NCBI GenBank assembly: GCA_020850355.1
Contig: JADZEX010000020.1
Coordinates: forward strand, 186,001 to 250,000
Direction: 5' to 3'
Source: Fimbriimonadaceae bacterium
GTDB taxonomy: Bacteria > Armatimonadota > UBA10988
Length of the DNA: 64,000 nt
Positions 92 to 6,320 of this stretch are shown here, piece after piece. The notes beneath the pieces were generated by a model that ran no database searches, had not been told where the DNA came from, and saw nothing but the letters and a program-made list of their open reading frames with translations. The translations under genes and the position numbers were made by a program. How positions within the stretch are numbered: position 1 is the stretch's first letter; every line of letters begins with the position of its first letter.

Positions 92-1432
92 TCAGCGCTG
101 CGCCAGGAGCCAGTCAGCCGCGGCCGGCAGGTCATCCACCACGGCCGTGCCCGCCAGATCGGGCCGCTGCGCCAGGCGCGCCTCACTGGCGGCGCCGTGT
201 CCGCTGCGCACCAGGATCGGCTGCAGACCGGCCAGCACGGCGGTCTCCAGATCGCCCAGCGTGTCGCCGATGTAGCAGCCGCCGGCGCTCTCCAGGTGCA
301 GCTCGGACGCCGCGTCGAGCAGCAGTTGCGGGTTCGGCTTGGCGTTCTCAGTCGGCTCCAGGCTAGGATGCACCGCCCGCTCGCCCGCTCCGGTGCTGTA
401 GCAGAAGGCGTCGAAGCAGGCGCCCTCTTGCTGCAGGAACCAGGCCAGCCGATCGAAAACGCTGTCGACCACGCTGGAGGTCACGTAGCCTGCGCCGACA
501 GCGCTCTGCGAACTCAGCACGACGCTGGCCCAACCGGCCTCGTGCAGCCGCCGCAGGGCGCGTCCGGCGCCGGGGATCGGCTGCAGCAGCTCCGGCCCGC
601 TGCGCCACGACGGCGCCACGTTGAGCACGCCGTCGCGGTCCAGACCGAGCAGCCGTCGCCCCGCTTCAGTCGGTTCCGGCAGCAGCGCCACGGTCTGCGG
701 CGCAACCTCCTGCCGCCGCAGGTCGTAGAGCCGGTAGCGGTGCGGAAACTCGCCAAAGGCCGGCGCCGTCGTGAAGCAGGTGTCGCCGAGGTCGATTCGC
801 TCGGTGCCGGGATGGTAGTGCCCCGAGAGACTCAGCACCACCTTGTTGGAGCCGACGATCTGCTGCACCAGGTGCTCGCCCTCGAAGTAAGTGTGCGGCC
901 AGCCCTCGTTCAGCGCTGGCGTCACCACGAAGTGCTGCAGATGAACCTGCGGCGGGCTGTCAGCCGCGGCCAGGACCTGCTCCAGCAGCACCCGCTCGCG
1001 GTCCAGCCGCCGTGGCACGTTGGCCTGCGCGTCGCGGTCCCAGAAGCTGACGAAGCGGTAGCCGCCCAGATCAACCACCGGCTGCGGTGGGAAGATCCGC
1101 GCCAGGGCCCGATGGTCGTCGTGGTTGCCCGGCAGCACCAGGTAAGGCACCCCGCTGCGCTGCAGGATCTGTCGCAGCAGCTCGTAGTCGGCCAGCACCG
1201 CGGCGTCCCAGAGCGGTCGCTGATAGTCGTAGTAGTCGTCACCATCCAGCAGATAGCCTGGCACATCGAGCAGGTCGCCGGTCACCAGCAGCACCTGCGC
1301 CCCGGCGGCGACGGCCTGGCTGACGGCCTGCTCGAAGAGCGCCGGCATCAGCCGGCACCGCCGCTTGACACTGCGGCTGGTCCCTGGCTGGTGCCACCGC
1401 AGGTGCAGGTCGGAGAACTGCGCAAGACGCAT
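92..1432 (-). CDS. Fusion of calcineurin-like metallophosphoesterase (N-term) and HAD-family phosphatase (histidinol-P/GmhB-like, C-term)
   Basis: N-term FSDLHL...GDLLD...GNHDDH motifs; C-term DRDGVLN (HAD motif I), SSQS, AKPNPQLL and GDTLGDLETA. Confidence 0.85.
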   Translation of the reverse strand: MRLAQFSDLHLRWHQPGTSRSVKRRCRLMPALFEQAVSQAVAAGAQVLLVTGDLLDVPGYLLDGDDYYDYQRPLWDAAVLADYELLRQILQRSGVPYLVLPGNHDDHRALARIFPPQPVVDLGGYRFVSFWDRDAQANVPRRLDRERVLLEQVLAAADSPPQVHLQHFVVTPALNEGWPHTYFEGEHLVQQIVGSNKVVLSLSGHYHPGTERIDLGDTCFTTAPAFGEFPHRYRLYDLRRQEVAPQTVALLPEPTEAGRRLLGLDRDGVLNVAPSWRSGPELLQPIPGAGRALRRLHEAGWASVVLSSQSAVGAGYVTSSVVDSVFDRLAWFLQQEGACFDAFCYSTGAGERAVHPSLEPTENAKPNPQLLLDAASELHLESAGGCYIGDTLGDLETAVLAGLQPILVRSGHGAASEARLAQRPDLAGTAVVDDLPAAADWLLAQR

Positions 1433-1491: not shown

Positions 1492-1509
1492 CGGCCGCCA
1501 CTGCACGGC
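1492..1509 (+). repeat. Left copy of 18-bp direct repeat CGGCCGCCACTGCACGGC flanking the ATPase/nuclease cassette
   Basis: Exact 18-bp match to 3500-3517, same orientation, read directly from the sequence. Confidence 0.9.
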
Positions 1510-1524
1510 GAAGCCTGATGCTGT

Positions 1525-1530
1525 TACAAT
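1525..1530 (+). promoter_or_regulatory. Candidate -10 element TACAAT upstream of the cassette
   Basis: TACAAT 18 nt before ATG 1549, with AGGAA Shine-Dalgarno-like sequence at 1538-1542; the -35 region is poor (TGCACG, inside the repeat). Confidence 0.4.
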
Positions 1531-1548
1531 GGACCGCAGGAAACGACG

Positions 1549-2943
1549 ATGCGTATCCTGCTCTCCAATCTCGGGTTGCTGCCCCACGCCGAGCTCCGCT
1601 TGGCTCCATTGACCATCATCTGCGGCGACAACAACAGCGGAAAGACCTACGCCACGTACGCAATCCACGGCCTCTTCAGCTACCTGCATGAGACCCATGA
1701 GCTCCCTGTCGACGACCTCGTGATCGACACACTGCTACGGGCCGGGACCGCGCACGTACCGCTGGGTCCCTATCTGGAAAAGGCCCAGGCTCACATGACC
1801 GCCGCCTGCGCTTCCTTCAGTCGGCGCCTGGCCGCGGTGTTTGCTGCTCGTGAGGAGCACTTTCGGGGTGCGGCTGTCGAGGTTCTGCTCGAAGATGGCG
1901 ACCTCCAGATCCCACCTTCCTACCGCCGCGGCCTCTCCTCGGCCTCGGCGGAGGTCTTCACAATCTCCAAGGAGCCAGCCGATGACCATCTTGTGCTGAC
2001 GCTGCTCGGCGAGGGAGACCGCCCGCCACTGCCTCGCGAGGTGCTGCAACACCTGATCGGCGAGGGACTTTGCCAAGTCCTCTTCGGGGCACTCTTCCCG
2101 CGGCCCTTTGTGGTGACTGCCGAGCGCACCGGGATCGCCGTCTTCCGTAAGGAGCTCAACTTCCCGCGCAACCGACTGATAGAAGAACTCGCCGACACTA
2201 ATAAGGAGGTCGATATGTTCGACCTCCTCACTAAGGTCTACACAGACTACGCCATGCCGGTCAAGCACAATGTTGAGTTCACCCGAAACCTGGCTGCTGT
2301 CTCAAAGGACTCCAGCTTCATCGCCACGCAGCACAGCGGGATTCTCGATGCCTTCTCGACCATCATCGGTGGCAGGTACCAGGTGACGCCGGACGACCAG
2401 GTCGTCTTCCGTCCGGCAGCCCAGCCCAAGCTGCTGCTGACGATGGACGAAAGCTCCAGTGCGGTCCGCTCTTGCCTGGCGCTACGGTTCTACTTGCATC
2501 ACGTGGCGCGGGTCGGCGACCTGCTGATCCTCGACGAGCCGGAGCTGAGTCTGCACCCGCGCAACCAGGTCCTGATGGCCCGCCTGCTGGTACGATTGCT
2601 GCATGTCGGCCTGCGGATCATGATCACGACGCACAGCGACTACCTGATCCGCGAGCTGAACACGATGATCCTAATCCAGTCGGGCGGGGATCGCGGCGAG
2701 GCCATTGCGACGCAGCACGGCTACCAGCCGGAGGAGCGTCTACGGCCGGAGGAGGTCGCGCTCTATTCGGCCAGGCAGTCGCAAGTGAAGCGGCCCGGCT
2801 ACAAGAACCGAAGGTCGGTACCCACTTTGGTCCGGGCGCCGATTACCGCCGACCGCGGCATCGCAGCCGACACCTTTGACGACACGATTGAGGGCCTGAA
2901 CAACATCCAGGACGAACTGATCTGGGAGGGGTTCGGTGGATGA
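1549..2943 (+). CDS. ABC/OLD-type AAA family ATPase (AAA_15-like, no TOPRIM domain seen)
   Basis: Walker A GDNNSGKT; signature-like DESSSAVRSCLALRFY; Walker B/D-loop LLILDEPELSLHPRNQ; switch His TTHSDYLIREL. Confidence 0.85.
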   Translation: MRILLSNLGLLPHAELRLAPLTIICGDNNSGKTYATYAIHGLFSYLHETHELPVDDLVIDTLLRAGTAHVPLGPYLEKAQAHMTAACASFSRRLAAVFAAREEHFRGAAVEVLLEDGDLQIPPSYRRGLSSASAEVFTISKEPADDHLVLTLLGEGDRPPLPREVLQHLIGEGLCQVLFGALFPRPFVVTAERTGIAVFRKELNFPRNRLIEELADTNKEVDMFDLLTKVYTDYAMPVKHNVEFTRNLAAVSKDSSFIATQHSGILDAFSTIIGGRYQVTPDDQVVFRPAAQPKLLLTMDESSSAVRSCLALRFYLHHVARVGDLLILDEPELSLHPRNQVLMARLLVRLLHVGLRIMITTHSDYLIRELNTMILIQSGGDRGEAIATQHGYQPEERLRPEEVALYSARQSQVKRPGYKNRRSVPTLVRAPITADRGIAADTFDDTIEGLNNIQDELIWEGFGG

Positions 2944-3481
2944 CCTCGAGGTTCTCGACGAGCTGATCCGATCCACTGCGGTGGTCACAGTGTCTTCGGC
3001 CACGCGGCGACTCACTCTGTCAGAGCCGTCGCAGCCAGGCTGCACCATCGAGGTGCTTGGCGTGGACGACGGCGCAGTCTGTTTTCGCGCGGATGCCTTC
3101 CCCGATCCTGGTGCCATCTTCTCAGGCGCGAACGGCTGCTGCTGCCGCAGCGACTTCATTCTGTTTGTTGCCCACAAAGACCAGCTCTATGTGGTCTGCA
3201 TCGAGATCAAGAGCACCTCTGACAAGGCTGAGCACATCCAGCAGCAGCTTCGCGGCGCAGCTTGCCTGGTGGAGTACACCCAAGCCGTTGGACGACACTT
3301 CTGGTCACAGCCGGACTTCCTCAAGGGCATCCGAATGCGGTTTGTATGCATCGCCCAAACGAGCCTTAACCAGCGCCGACCAGTCATCGACCGGCCGAAG
3401 GGGAGGCATGACCGGCCCGACCGTCCGCTGCGGGTTTCCGCCGCGAAGGAGGTCGAACTGAAGAGGCTCCTGCACGGCTGA
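2936..3481 (+). CDS. Small protein with PD-(D/E)xK nuclease-like motif, translationally coupled to the ATPase
   Basis: GTG start overlaps the 3' end of the ATPase gene; CCCRSD73-x16-E90-I-K92 followed by a Q-rich helix (AEHIQQQLRGAACLVEY). Confidence 0.6.
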   Translation: MDDLEVLDELIRSTAVVTVSSATRRLTLSEPSQPGCTIEVLGVDDGAVCFRADAFPDPGAIFSGANGCCCRSDFILFVAHKDQLYVVCIEIKSTSDKAEHIQQQLRGAACLVEYTQAVGRHFWSQPDFLKGIRMRFVCIAQTSLNQRRPVIDRPKGRHDRPDRPLRVSAAKEVELKRLLHG

Positions 3482-3496
3482 CCTCGCGCCGGCCCG

Positions 3497-5383
3497 CTAC
3501 GGCCGCCACTGCACGGCCACCGCTTCGCCTGCCGGCAGGTTCAGGCCGGTCGGATCGCAGCGGGTCGCCGGGCCGAAGAGCAGCTTCGGCGCGGCGAGTT
3601 GCCAGGGCAGCTCAACCGGCTGGGTGGTGCCGTTGGCGAGCAGCATCAACGCCTCGTCGCCGCGGCGCCAGGCGCGGGCGGCGACGCCGGGCGGGAGTTG
3701 GCCGAGACCGGTGGGCGGCGCCGGCTCGACCGACAGCAGCAGCGGGGTGAGTGCCTTGACCTCGCCGATCACGGCGGTGACGTCGGGCCAGCGGCGGTCG
3801 AAGCCGAGCGGGTCGCGGCGGAGGTCGCCGAAGCTGTAGCAGATCAGCCCCTGGGCCCCGGCGGCCAGGCAGGCGTAGAGCATCGTACGCATCTCGCCGC
3901 GGGTCGGCGCGCGGCCTTGGGCCTTCTCGGCTGCGGTCGTCTTGTAGACCGCCCAGTCGAAGACCTGCGGCACCTGCCAGACACTGCCCTGCCCAGCCAT
4001 CGCCGCGACCGTCTGGCTGGTCCAGTCCTGGGCCATCGACAGCGGCCTGGTCGGCACCGGGTACGGGTCGGTGCCCAGGATGTCGGTTGTGTCGACGTAG
4101 CCGGCCAGCTCGCCGACCTGGTAGAGCACGACCCAGGCTGGGTGGTTGGGGTCGCCGTCGACCACCTGGCGGTACCGCTTGACCAGCTCGGCGTGGTACT
4201 CCAGCGACAGCTCATCGTTGACGTACCAGGCCAGCAGCGCCGGATGCTCGCGGAACTCGCGCACCACGCCGGCGGTGATGTCAGCGACGTCGGTCCACGG
4301 GCCGACCTGCTTCGGGCGCCAGGTGGTGCCGTCGTAGAGGTCCTTGACCGAAGCGATCACCCGCAGCCCGGCCGCCTGGGCGGCGTCGAGGTAGCCCCGA
4401 GTGCGCTGCAGGTCGGGACCGAGCAGGCCGTAAGGCATCAAGCAGTTGAAGCCGGCGGCGGCGATCAGCTTGAGGTCGGCGGGCGAGGCGAAGCCGTCGT
4501 AGATCCCCAGCGGCAGCACCGGTTCGCCGTTGACGATCGTCCGGCCATGCTCGTCGAGGTAGACCGACGGCCGCGGCGCGGCGGGATCGACGATGGTCAG
4601 GTCGGCGCTGCTGCTGGCCAGCTCCCGCTCGCCCTGGCGCAGGCTGGTGCGGACCTGGTAGGGGCCGGCGGCCAGGCCGGTCGTCGGCACCGCCAGCCGC
4701 CCCCGGCGCTGGTTGAGGCTCAGCGGACGCTGCCAGACTTCCCGCTCGCCCTGCCGCAGTGCGACGGTGACGGCCAGCTCGGCCAACGGCGGGTCGCCGG
4801 CCAGGCGGTCGGCCACTACCGCCTCGGCGGTAGCAGGCTGCCCGGCGGTCAGGCGGCCGCGGTAACGGGGACCGTGCAGCGCCGTGCGCAGCGGTGGGTC
4901 CAGCAGTTCGGCCACCTCCAGGTCGTCGAACCAGGCCACGCCGGTCATCTCGCGCCGCAGGTAGAGCGCGATGCTGGTGCGCTGGGCGTCGGGTCGGATG
5001 CCGACGCTGCCGCGGATCTGCTGCCAGTCGTGAGTGCCCTTGACCCCCGCCGGGTAGTGGCCGCCGAGGTAGCGGGTGCCCTCGTACAGCTCCAGGCAGA
5101 TGGTCGCCCCGGTGTCGCTGCCGGCGACGTCGGCGGTCTTGACCCAGACGCTGAAACCGTAGCGCCGGCCCGGCTGCAACGGCAGGTTGAGGGTCGCCAG
5201 CGGATAGGCCGCGGCGTCCCGGTTCTCGAGGCGCAGGCAGCCGGGTGAGGTGCGGCCACCCGTGGCGACCCAGCGCACCTGGGTCGGCAGACTCCAGCCG
5301 GCGGCGCCAGCGTCGAAGCCTGGGTTCGGCACCAGGTTATCAGGCGCGCCGAGGGTCAGCAGGCAGAGCATCCAGAGCATCAT
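3497..5383 (-). CDS. Secreted TIM-barrel glycoside-hydrolase-like protein with N-terminal CBM-like domain
   Basis: Signal-like N-terminus; NLVPNPGFDAGAAGWSL (CBM_4_9-like start); later VNGEPVLPLGIYDGF...AAGFNCLMPYG barrel-type sequence. Confidence 0.65.
   Translation of the reverse strand: MMLWMLCLLTLGAPDNLVPNPGFDAGAAGWSLPTQVRWVATGGRTSPGCLRLENRDAAAYPLATLNLPLQPGRRYGFSVWVKTADVAGSDTGATICLELYEGTRYLGGHYPAGVKGTHDWQQIRGSVGIRPDAQRTSIALYLRREMTGVAWFDDLEVAELLDPPLRTALHGPRYRGRLTAGQPATAEAVVADRLAGDPPLAELAVTVALRQGEREVWQRPLSLNQRRGRLAVPTTGLAAGPYQVRTSLRQGERELASSSADLTIVDPAAPRPSVYLDEHGRTIVNGEPVLPLGIYDGFASPADLKLIAAAGFNCLMPYGLLGPDLQRTRGYLDAAQAAGLRVIASVKDLYDGTTWRPKQVGPWTDVADITAGVVREFREHPALLAWYVNDELSLEYHAELVKRYRQVVDGDPNHPAWVVLYQVGELAGYVDTTDILGTDPYPVPTRPLSMAQDWTSQTVAAMAGQGSVWQVPQVFDWAVYKTTAAEKAQGRAPTRGEMRTMLYACLAAGAQGLICYSFGDLRRDPLGFDRRWPDVTAVIGEVKALTPLLLSVEPAPPTGLGQLPPGVAARAWRRGDEALMLLANGTTQPVELPWQLAAPKLLFGPATRCDPTGLNLPAGEAVAVQWRP
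3500..3517 (+). repeat. Right copy of 18-bp direct repeat CGGCCGCCACTGCACGGC
   Basis: Exact match to 1492-1509; lies within the last codons (AVQWRP) of the minus-strand gene 3497-5383. Confidence 0.9.
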
Positions 5384-6320
5384 CGGGTCTCCCGCGTCCG
5401 CTGGTCAGATAGTACGCCAGCAGCGCCGCCAGCACGAGCGCCAACAGCAGCTTCAACGGCGCTGGCGCCGGCCAGGGCGTCAGCAGTCCCTCGACCAGCG
5501 CCGCCAGGACGAAGCCGCCCAGCCCGCCGCCCAGCAGCGTGAAGGCCTGCGGCCCGGTCTGGGCAAGCGCCCGCAGCCGCGAGCGGCGCCCCCCGTGGAG
5601 GACCGCCCAGCCGAGTTGCAGGCCGGCCGCCGCCACCGTCAGCAGCGCCGGTAGCTCCAGCACGCCATGCGGCGCGACCGCTGCCAGGAAGTCCAGCCCG
5701 CCGCCCTGGGCCGTCGCCAGACCGGCCAGGCCGCCGAGTAGGAACCCGTTGCGCAGCAGGGCCGCCAGGCTGCCGAGGCCAAGGAAGATGCCGCCGGCGA
5801 AGGCGACCAACGCGGCGGTCAGGTTGTTGGTCAACAGGAACCCGGTCAGCGCCACGAAGACGCCCGGCGGGATCTGGCCGCTCGGGTCGACGGCCAGGTC
5901 GGCCGTCAGCGCGCCGGGCACAAACAGCCGGGCGGCGGTCGGCTCGCGGTAGACCGTGACAAAGGCCAGCAGCGTGGCCGCGGCGAAGAGGGCCGTGCTG
6001 ACCAGCAGGAACGGCGCCGCGGCCCGCCAGCGCGCGGGGTAGGCCGTCAGCCAGTCCGCGCGGCGGCGGGGTGCCCGGCGCGGGGCAGCGTAGAGCAGGC
6101 TATGGGCCCGGGCACAAAGCCGGTTGAGCCAGGCCAGCAGCTCGGGATCGGGGAGGTGCACCGCGGCGTAGGCCAGGTCGCCGGTGGTCTGGCGATAGAG
6201 CGGCCCGAACTGCCGCAGGCCCGGGCCAGCCAGGGATCCGGCGGTCTGCAACTGGTCGCAGCAGGCGCTCAACTGTTGCCAGCGCTGCTGTCGCGCCGCG
6301 ACAAACTGCTCGACCGTCAC
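5340..6320 (-). CDS. Stage II sporulation protein M-like integral membrane protein (SpoIIM/DUF95)
   Basis: VTVEQFVAARQQRWQQL N-term, multi-TM with NNLTAALVAFAGGIFLGLGSL and APHGVLELPALL. GTG start at 6320 preferred over the Ala-rich ORF extension that overlaps the next gene. Confidence 0.75.
   Translation of the reverse strand: MTVEQFVAARQQRWQQLSACCDQLQTAGSLAGPGLRQFGPLYRQTTGDLAYAAVHLPDPELLAWLNRLCARAHSLLYAAPRRAPRRRADWLTAYPARWRAAAPFLLVSTALFAAATLLAFVTVYREPTAARLFVPGALTADLAVDPSGQIPPGVFVALTGFLLTNNLTAALVAFAGGIFLGLGSLAALLRNGFLLGGLAGLATAQGGGLDFLAAVAPHGVLELPALLTVAAAGLQLGWAVLHGGRRSRLRALAQTGPQAFTLLGGGLGGFVLAALVEGLLTPWPAPAPLKLLLALVLAALLAYYLTSGRGRPDDALDALPADPRRA

Follow-up and report, generated by a model that had tools for sequence, protein, structure and literature searches.

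We propose that the predicted two-gene defence cassette found in the analysed window (a 64,000-nucleotide stretch of DNA from a Fimbriimonadaceae bacterium) entered its present locus as one unit, by an insertion with a long, variable target duplication at the 3′ end of the convergent gene at 3497-5383. We assign this reading a probability of about 0.6. The features of the locus are listed below (positions are those of the window).

92-1432, minus strand: left neighbour, encoding a calcineurin-like phosphoesterase plus a HAD hydrolase.
1492-1509, plus strand: left, orphan repeat copy; an exact match, the pair being unique in the genome.
1510-3499, no strand assigned: putative inserted unit of 1990 bp, bounded by the repeats and containing two overlapping genes only.
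1549-2943, plus strand: predicted ATPase of 464 aa (PADLOC PDC-M47A; AAA_15/OLD-like ABC ATPase).
2936-3481, plus strand: predicted nuclease of 181 aa (PADLOC PDC-M47B); the gene overlaps that of the ATPase.
3500-3517, plus strand: right repeat copy, equal to the last six codons (AVQWRP) of the convergent gene.
3497-5383, minus strand: putative target gene, intact, encoding a glycoside-hydrolase-like (GH) protein of 628 aa; its orthologues end at the same place.

The sequence CGGCCGCCACTGCACGGC is present in two exact copies (1492-1509 and 3500-3517), on the same strand and 2008 bp apart. This agrees with the original prediction, as do the distances of 39 nt between the repeat and the start of the ATPase gene, and of 18 nt between the stop of the nuclease gene and the repeat. 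No third exact copy was found in the whole genome containing the window (G000; 6.67 Mb); the 18-mer is thus a unique pair and not a motif common at unrelated sites, an outcome named beforehand as one that would speak against the idea. The right copy falls within the minus-strand gene and not in an intergenic region, and the TAG stop follows directly. Orthologues of this gene in G001 and G002 (two genomes of the same family) end at approximately the same position, which indicates that the gene is intact and that the left copy is the orphan. The two copies differ at the next base (TAG in the gene vs GAG at the orphan copy). Either the orphan copy was altered after the insertion, or the duplication ended one codon before the stop; we infer decay of the orphan copy. 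After strict excision of the insert, the gene would have no stop for about 50 codons, unless this base mutated later.

The gene order GH-FmdB is kept in G001, and GH-SpoIIM-FmdB in G002; the adjacency of the GH and phosphoesterase genes was seen in neither. The nearest genomes compared with that of the window represent other genera, and a search of genome contigs for the window's empty site returned one distant match (36%) only. Prepilin-like proteins point to Armatimonadota as the phylum. The other adverse outcome named beforehand, i.e. the presence of the cassette in all relatives, was not observed, as relatives without it were found.

Neither an integrase nor a transposase gene is located within the insert (1510-3499), which has no space for further genes; in this respect the original prediction was correct. 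The product of the first gene matches the PADLOC models PDC-M47A (E = 1.3e-161, over residues 1-460) and PD-T4-4_A (E = 6.5e-134), as well as the Pfam families PF13175 (1.3e-18) and PF13304 (4.7e-13) (AAA_15/AAA_21), and its Walker A, Walker B and signature motifs are conserved. The product of the second gene matches PDC-M47B (E = 4.7e-46, over residues 1-179) and contains a PD-(D/E)xK-like arrangement (D...ExK), in which D73 and K92 are invariant in six aligned proteins. Adjacent genes that match both family models, with intact catalytic residues, place the operon in the PDC-M47/PD-T4-4 group. Its two genes have a G+C content of approximately 0.62, against values of 0.705 and 0.727 for the genes on either side, and PDC-M47A is present in only 5 of the 292 genomes of the phylum. 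Taken together, the model matches, the retained nuclease residues, the low G+C content and the rarity in the phylum make it most likely that the region 1510-3499 is a foreign, laterally acquired operon with a predicted anti-phage function. A search for promoter and terminator patterns gave nothing above the level of shuffled sequences.

A sister case was identified in G080, another of the five genomes of the phylum that contain PDC-M47, where the layout is the same as in the window. The cassette of G080 (L116, 3306-5390; 2085 bp) carries the same two genes and is flanked by 38-bp repeats with one mismatch (3268-3305 and 5391-5428), which were found only there in G080. Copy 1 extends from the 3′ end of a convergent host gene through the stop codon to 16 nt beyond it. 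In both G080 and the window, the nuclease end of the cassette faces the duplicated gene end, and the orphan copy lies upstream of the ATPase gene. Despite this common layout, the ATPases are only 35% identical, which suggests that the two acquisitions were independent.

Two congeners without the cassette, G079 and G081, also have the orthologous gene, with identities of 87 and 89%. In these genomes the end of the gene runs straight into the sequence located 3′ of copy 2 in G080 (92.6 and 91.2% identity over about 228 bp), and there is a single repeat copy. This is the empty site: G080 gained the 2085-bp unit together with a duplication of 38 bp. Some bases common to the two G080 copies are absent from the congeners, as expected from duplication of the host's own sequence. 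The spacers between repeats and genes are 72 and 44 bp long, with no remnant of an integrase. The suggestion that the repeat marks an insertion duplication around a minimal cargo cassette has thus been well supported by G080 and its observed empty site. By analogy, the window repeat presumably arose in the same way, and the site in the window would previously have resembled that of the congeners.

The recurrence of this architecture with the same cassette family also bears on whether the match around the operon is a mere coincidence in a GC-rich genome. We scanned 2.06 Mb (about 1.8 Mb of G000, the remainder from G080) for pairs of repeats located outside gene interiors, 0.6-8 kb apart and bracketing a whole gene. 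A composition model predicts 0.16 direct pairs of at least 18 bp in 2.06 Mb (approximately 0.005 per 64 kb), and the inverted-orientation control gave no pair of at least 18 bp. The other bracketing repeats of at least 18 bp were (i) parS sites, (ii) a tandem gene duplication in G080 (L155), (iii) prepilin-like N-termini on contig C62 and (iv) other paralogous stretches; the remaining matches in the scan were of 17 bp or less. Isolated direct 18-mers approximately 2 kb apart do occur within coding sequence (on C52, at 38558/40500, 65097/67024 and 92162/94337), which favours coincidence, and the shortness of the 18-bp copy in the window weakens the preferred reading. On balance, we consider it improbable that the pair arose by chance. 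The statement that such a match is very unlikely by chance stands as regards its placement around a foreign operon; the length of the match is less remarkable, since other 18-mers of this kind exist in coding sequence.

The duplication in L155 (10940-13513) is tandem-like; its 3′ ends are nearly identical over 50 bp and lie 2524 bp from each other. The parS sequence (TGTTTCACGTGAAACA) occurs in G000 in 112 exact copies (159 when up to one mismatch is allowed), and 0-2 times in each of 20 relatives. Many of the G000 sites form close pairs in intergenic gaps, and they are dense on a few contigs (C22, C46, C96 and C19 among others). To our knowledge, this count far exceeds the usual numbers of chromosomal parS sites.

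A third case was found on contig C38 of G000, where a direct repeat of 526 bp (95.8% identity; 201013-201538 and 203110-203635), sharp at both ends, spans the final 510 bp of the gene at 203126-204763, including its stop, plus 16 nt past the stop. The 1571-bp insert encodes a protein with a PIN domain (PF01850) and a partner of 80 aa, which are likely to constitute a VapBC-like toxin-antitoxin pair, as judged from their sequences. Next to it (198904-201007), in convergent orientation to the orphan gene end of 526 bp, is a two-gene operon encoding an AAA ATPase (best PADLOC match, PtuA/AriA-type) and a second protein with no Pfam or PADLOC match, which is possibly another defence operon.

The differences between the C38 copies are mostly silent: 14 of the 20 coding differences are at third codon positions, compared with about 10 of 20 predicted for a mixture of silent change in the gene and unconstrained decay of the orphan copy. 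This is a hint that the two copies are alleles joined by recombination. Homology-assisted illegitimate recombination would produce such alleles, if a donor cassette lying beside its own allele of the gene were joined by homology on one side and illegitimately on the other. Alleles cannot be told from duplicates in pairs as short as those of 18 and 38 bp; moreover, the two G080 copies have bases in common that the congeners lack, and the model only shifts the first insertion to the donor. We therefore regard it as improbable for these loci.

At all three loci (the window, G080 and C38) the module is flanked by direct repeats of target sequence. The duplicated sequences (18, 38 and 526 bp) have no common core, each being the 3′ end of a different host gene, and neither terminal inverted repeats nor common insert ends were found across the three loci. 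These lengths suggest that the extent of the duplication was determined by each event rather than by an enzyme. No Ku gene was detected in G000 or G080, which argues against Ku-dependent (classical) end joining. The variable lengths, together with the lack of a core, of terminal repeats, of an integrase in or at the inserts and of Ku, speak against classical end joining and against a transposase. They also render it unlikely that the loci have a site-specific recombinase in common, and we infer that the insertions probably took place without an enzyme of this kind, a recombinase acting in trans being the less likely alternative.

Action of a DDE transposase in trans, with the repeats as its target-site duplication, would explain why target DNA is duplicated. 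Known transposases yield fixed, short duplications. The lengths of 18, 38 and 526 bp and the missing terminal inverted repeats render this explanation extremely improbable.

The original prediction also considered the repeats as attL/attR cores, i.e. the traces of a tyrosine-recombinase element that has lost its integrase, or of a satellite mobilized in trans (CIME-like). Tyrosine recombinases often use the 3′ ends of genes, and the integrating element restores the gene end. Both PDC-M47 loci are located at gene 3′ ends, the gene is restored, and the empty site related to G080 is clean; in addition, the 38-bp repeat of G080 spans a hairpin located at the end of the gene and contains inverted arms of 7 bp (GGCGCTG/CAGCGCC). 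Insertions at gene 3′ ends are to be expected whatever the mechanism, because a gene whose end is included in the duplication stays whole. The sites lack a common core, the 526-bp duplication of C38 is not an att core, and the spacers (72 and 44 bp in G080, 39 and 18 bp in the window) contain no remnant of an integrase, the loss of which would require equally extensive deletions to have occurred twice, independently. The att cores were thus not borne out (repeats of 18-526 bp, each the 3′ end of a local gene), and we judge such an origin unlikely.

Under the preferred reading, insertion with target duplication, the incoming module would consist of an OLD-type ABC ATPase, acting as a sensor, and a PD-(D/E)xK-type nuclease, in a unit that carries no recombinase. 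Joining may involve a broken or nicked target copied on both strands (by fill-in or template switch); alternatively, one end may be anchored by homology and the other joined illegitimately. In duplicating the target, it would leave the host gene with its intact 3′ end (3500-3517), and the orphan copy at 1492-1509. The insertion might then be retained, as it spares the host gene and brings in a useful or addictive module.

Direct repeats were not found at seven other PDC-M47 loci from the two phyla sampled (G345, G610, G629, G460, G089, G092 and G116), although for G345 this is a weak test, as the contig includes just 120 bp upstream of the ATPase gene. The PDC-M47 loci examined on viral contigs also had no comparable repeat, with matches of 12-15 bp only. 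Repeat-flanked insertion is therefore not the sole route of the operon. In two related species (L218 and L219, of G610 and G629, respectively) the cassette is flanked by the 3′ end of a polA-like gene and by an lpd-like gene, and the G629 copy has a stop within the ATPase gene. A broader proposal would be that PDC-M47-type cassettes, and some toxin-antitoxin pairs, are minimal mobile units that insert at convergent gene 3′ ends with a copied end, through their own nuclease or a host process that it triggers, and so spread without a recombinase of their own. This is a speculative and rather unlikely generalization.

The route by which small integrase-less defence operons enter chromosomes is usually unknown. 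Two apparently independent PDC-M47 insertions and a toxin-antitoxin case have a common signature, consisting of a duplicated gene 3′ end of variable length and an intact gene. The duplicated gene end is a searchable mark for lone defence cassettes, and the mechanism proposed for restriction-modification systems may be widened to other nuclease-based defences.

PDC-M47, PD-T4-4, "OLD-ABC ATPase + novel REase" and WonAB are related defence operons (PMC9519451, PMC12137116), and PD-(D/E)xK nucleases have been described for PD-T4-4 and WonAB (PMC12137116). Like these systems, the window contains adjacent genes for an OLD-like ABC ATPase and a nuclease with a restriction fold, which match the PADLOC models end to end. 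A PD-T4-4 example resides in an ICE-like element and WonAB in a prophage-like element (PMC9519451, PMC12137116), whereas the window operon stands alone between chromosomal genes. The cassette resembles a cis-mobilizable element (CIME; PMC5704250) in having cargo between direct repeats at a gene 3′ end and no integrase, but it bears no trace of a former ICE or IME, lacks a common att core and is just 2 kb in size.

Insertion with long, variable target duplication has been described for restriction-modification systems (Nobusato 2000 and Furuta 2010, as quoted in PMC3031569, PMC3874152 and PMC1643837). As far as the quoted accounts go, the similarities include a nuclease-bearing defence module without a transposase or integrase, direct repeats of target sequence of variable length, and detection by comparison of close genomes. 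In contrast to those insertions, the cargo analysed here is an ATPase and a nuclease with no methyltransferase, the phylum is a different one, and in all three cases the host gene is hit at its 3′ end and left whole; the duplications of 18 and 38 bp also fall below the order of 100 bp quoted for restriction-modification systems. Nevertheless, an insertion of the restriction-modification type fits the three loci better than att sites or a transposon.
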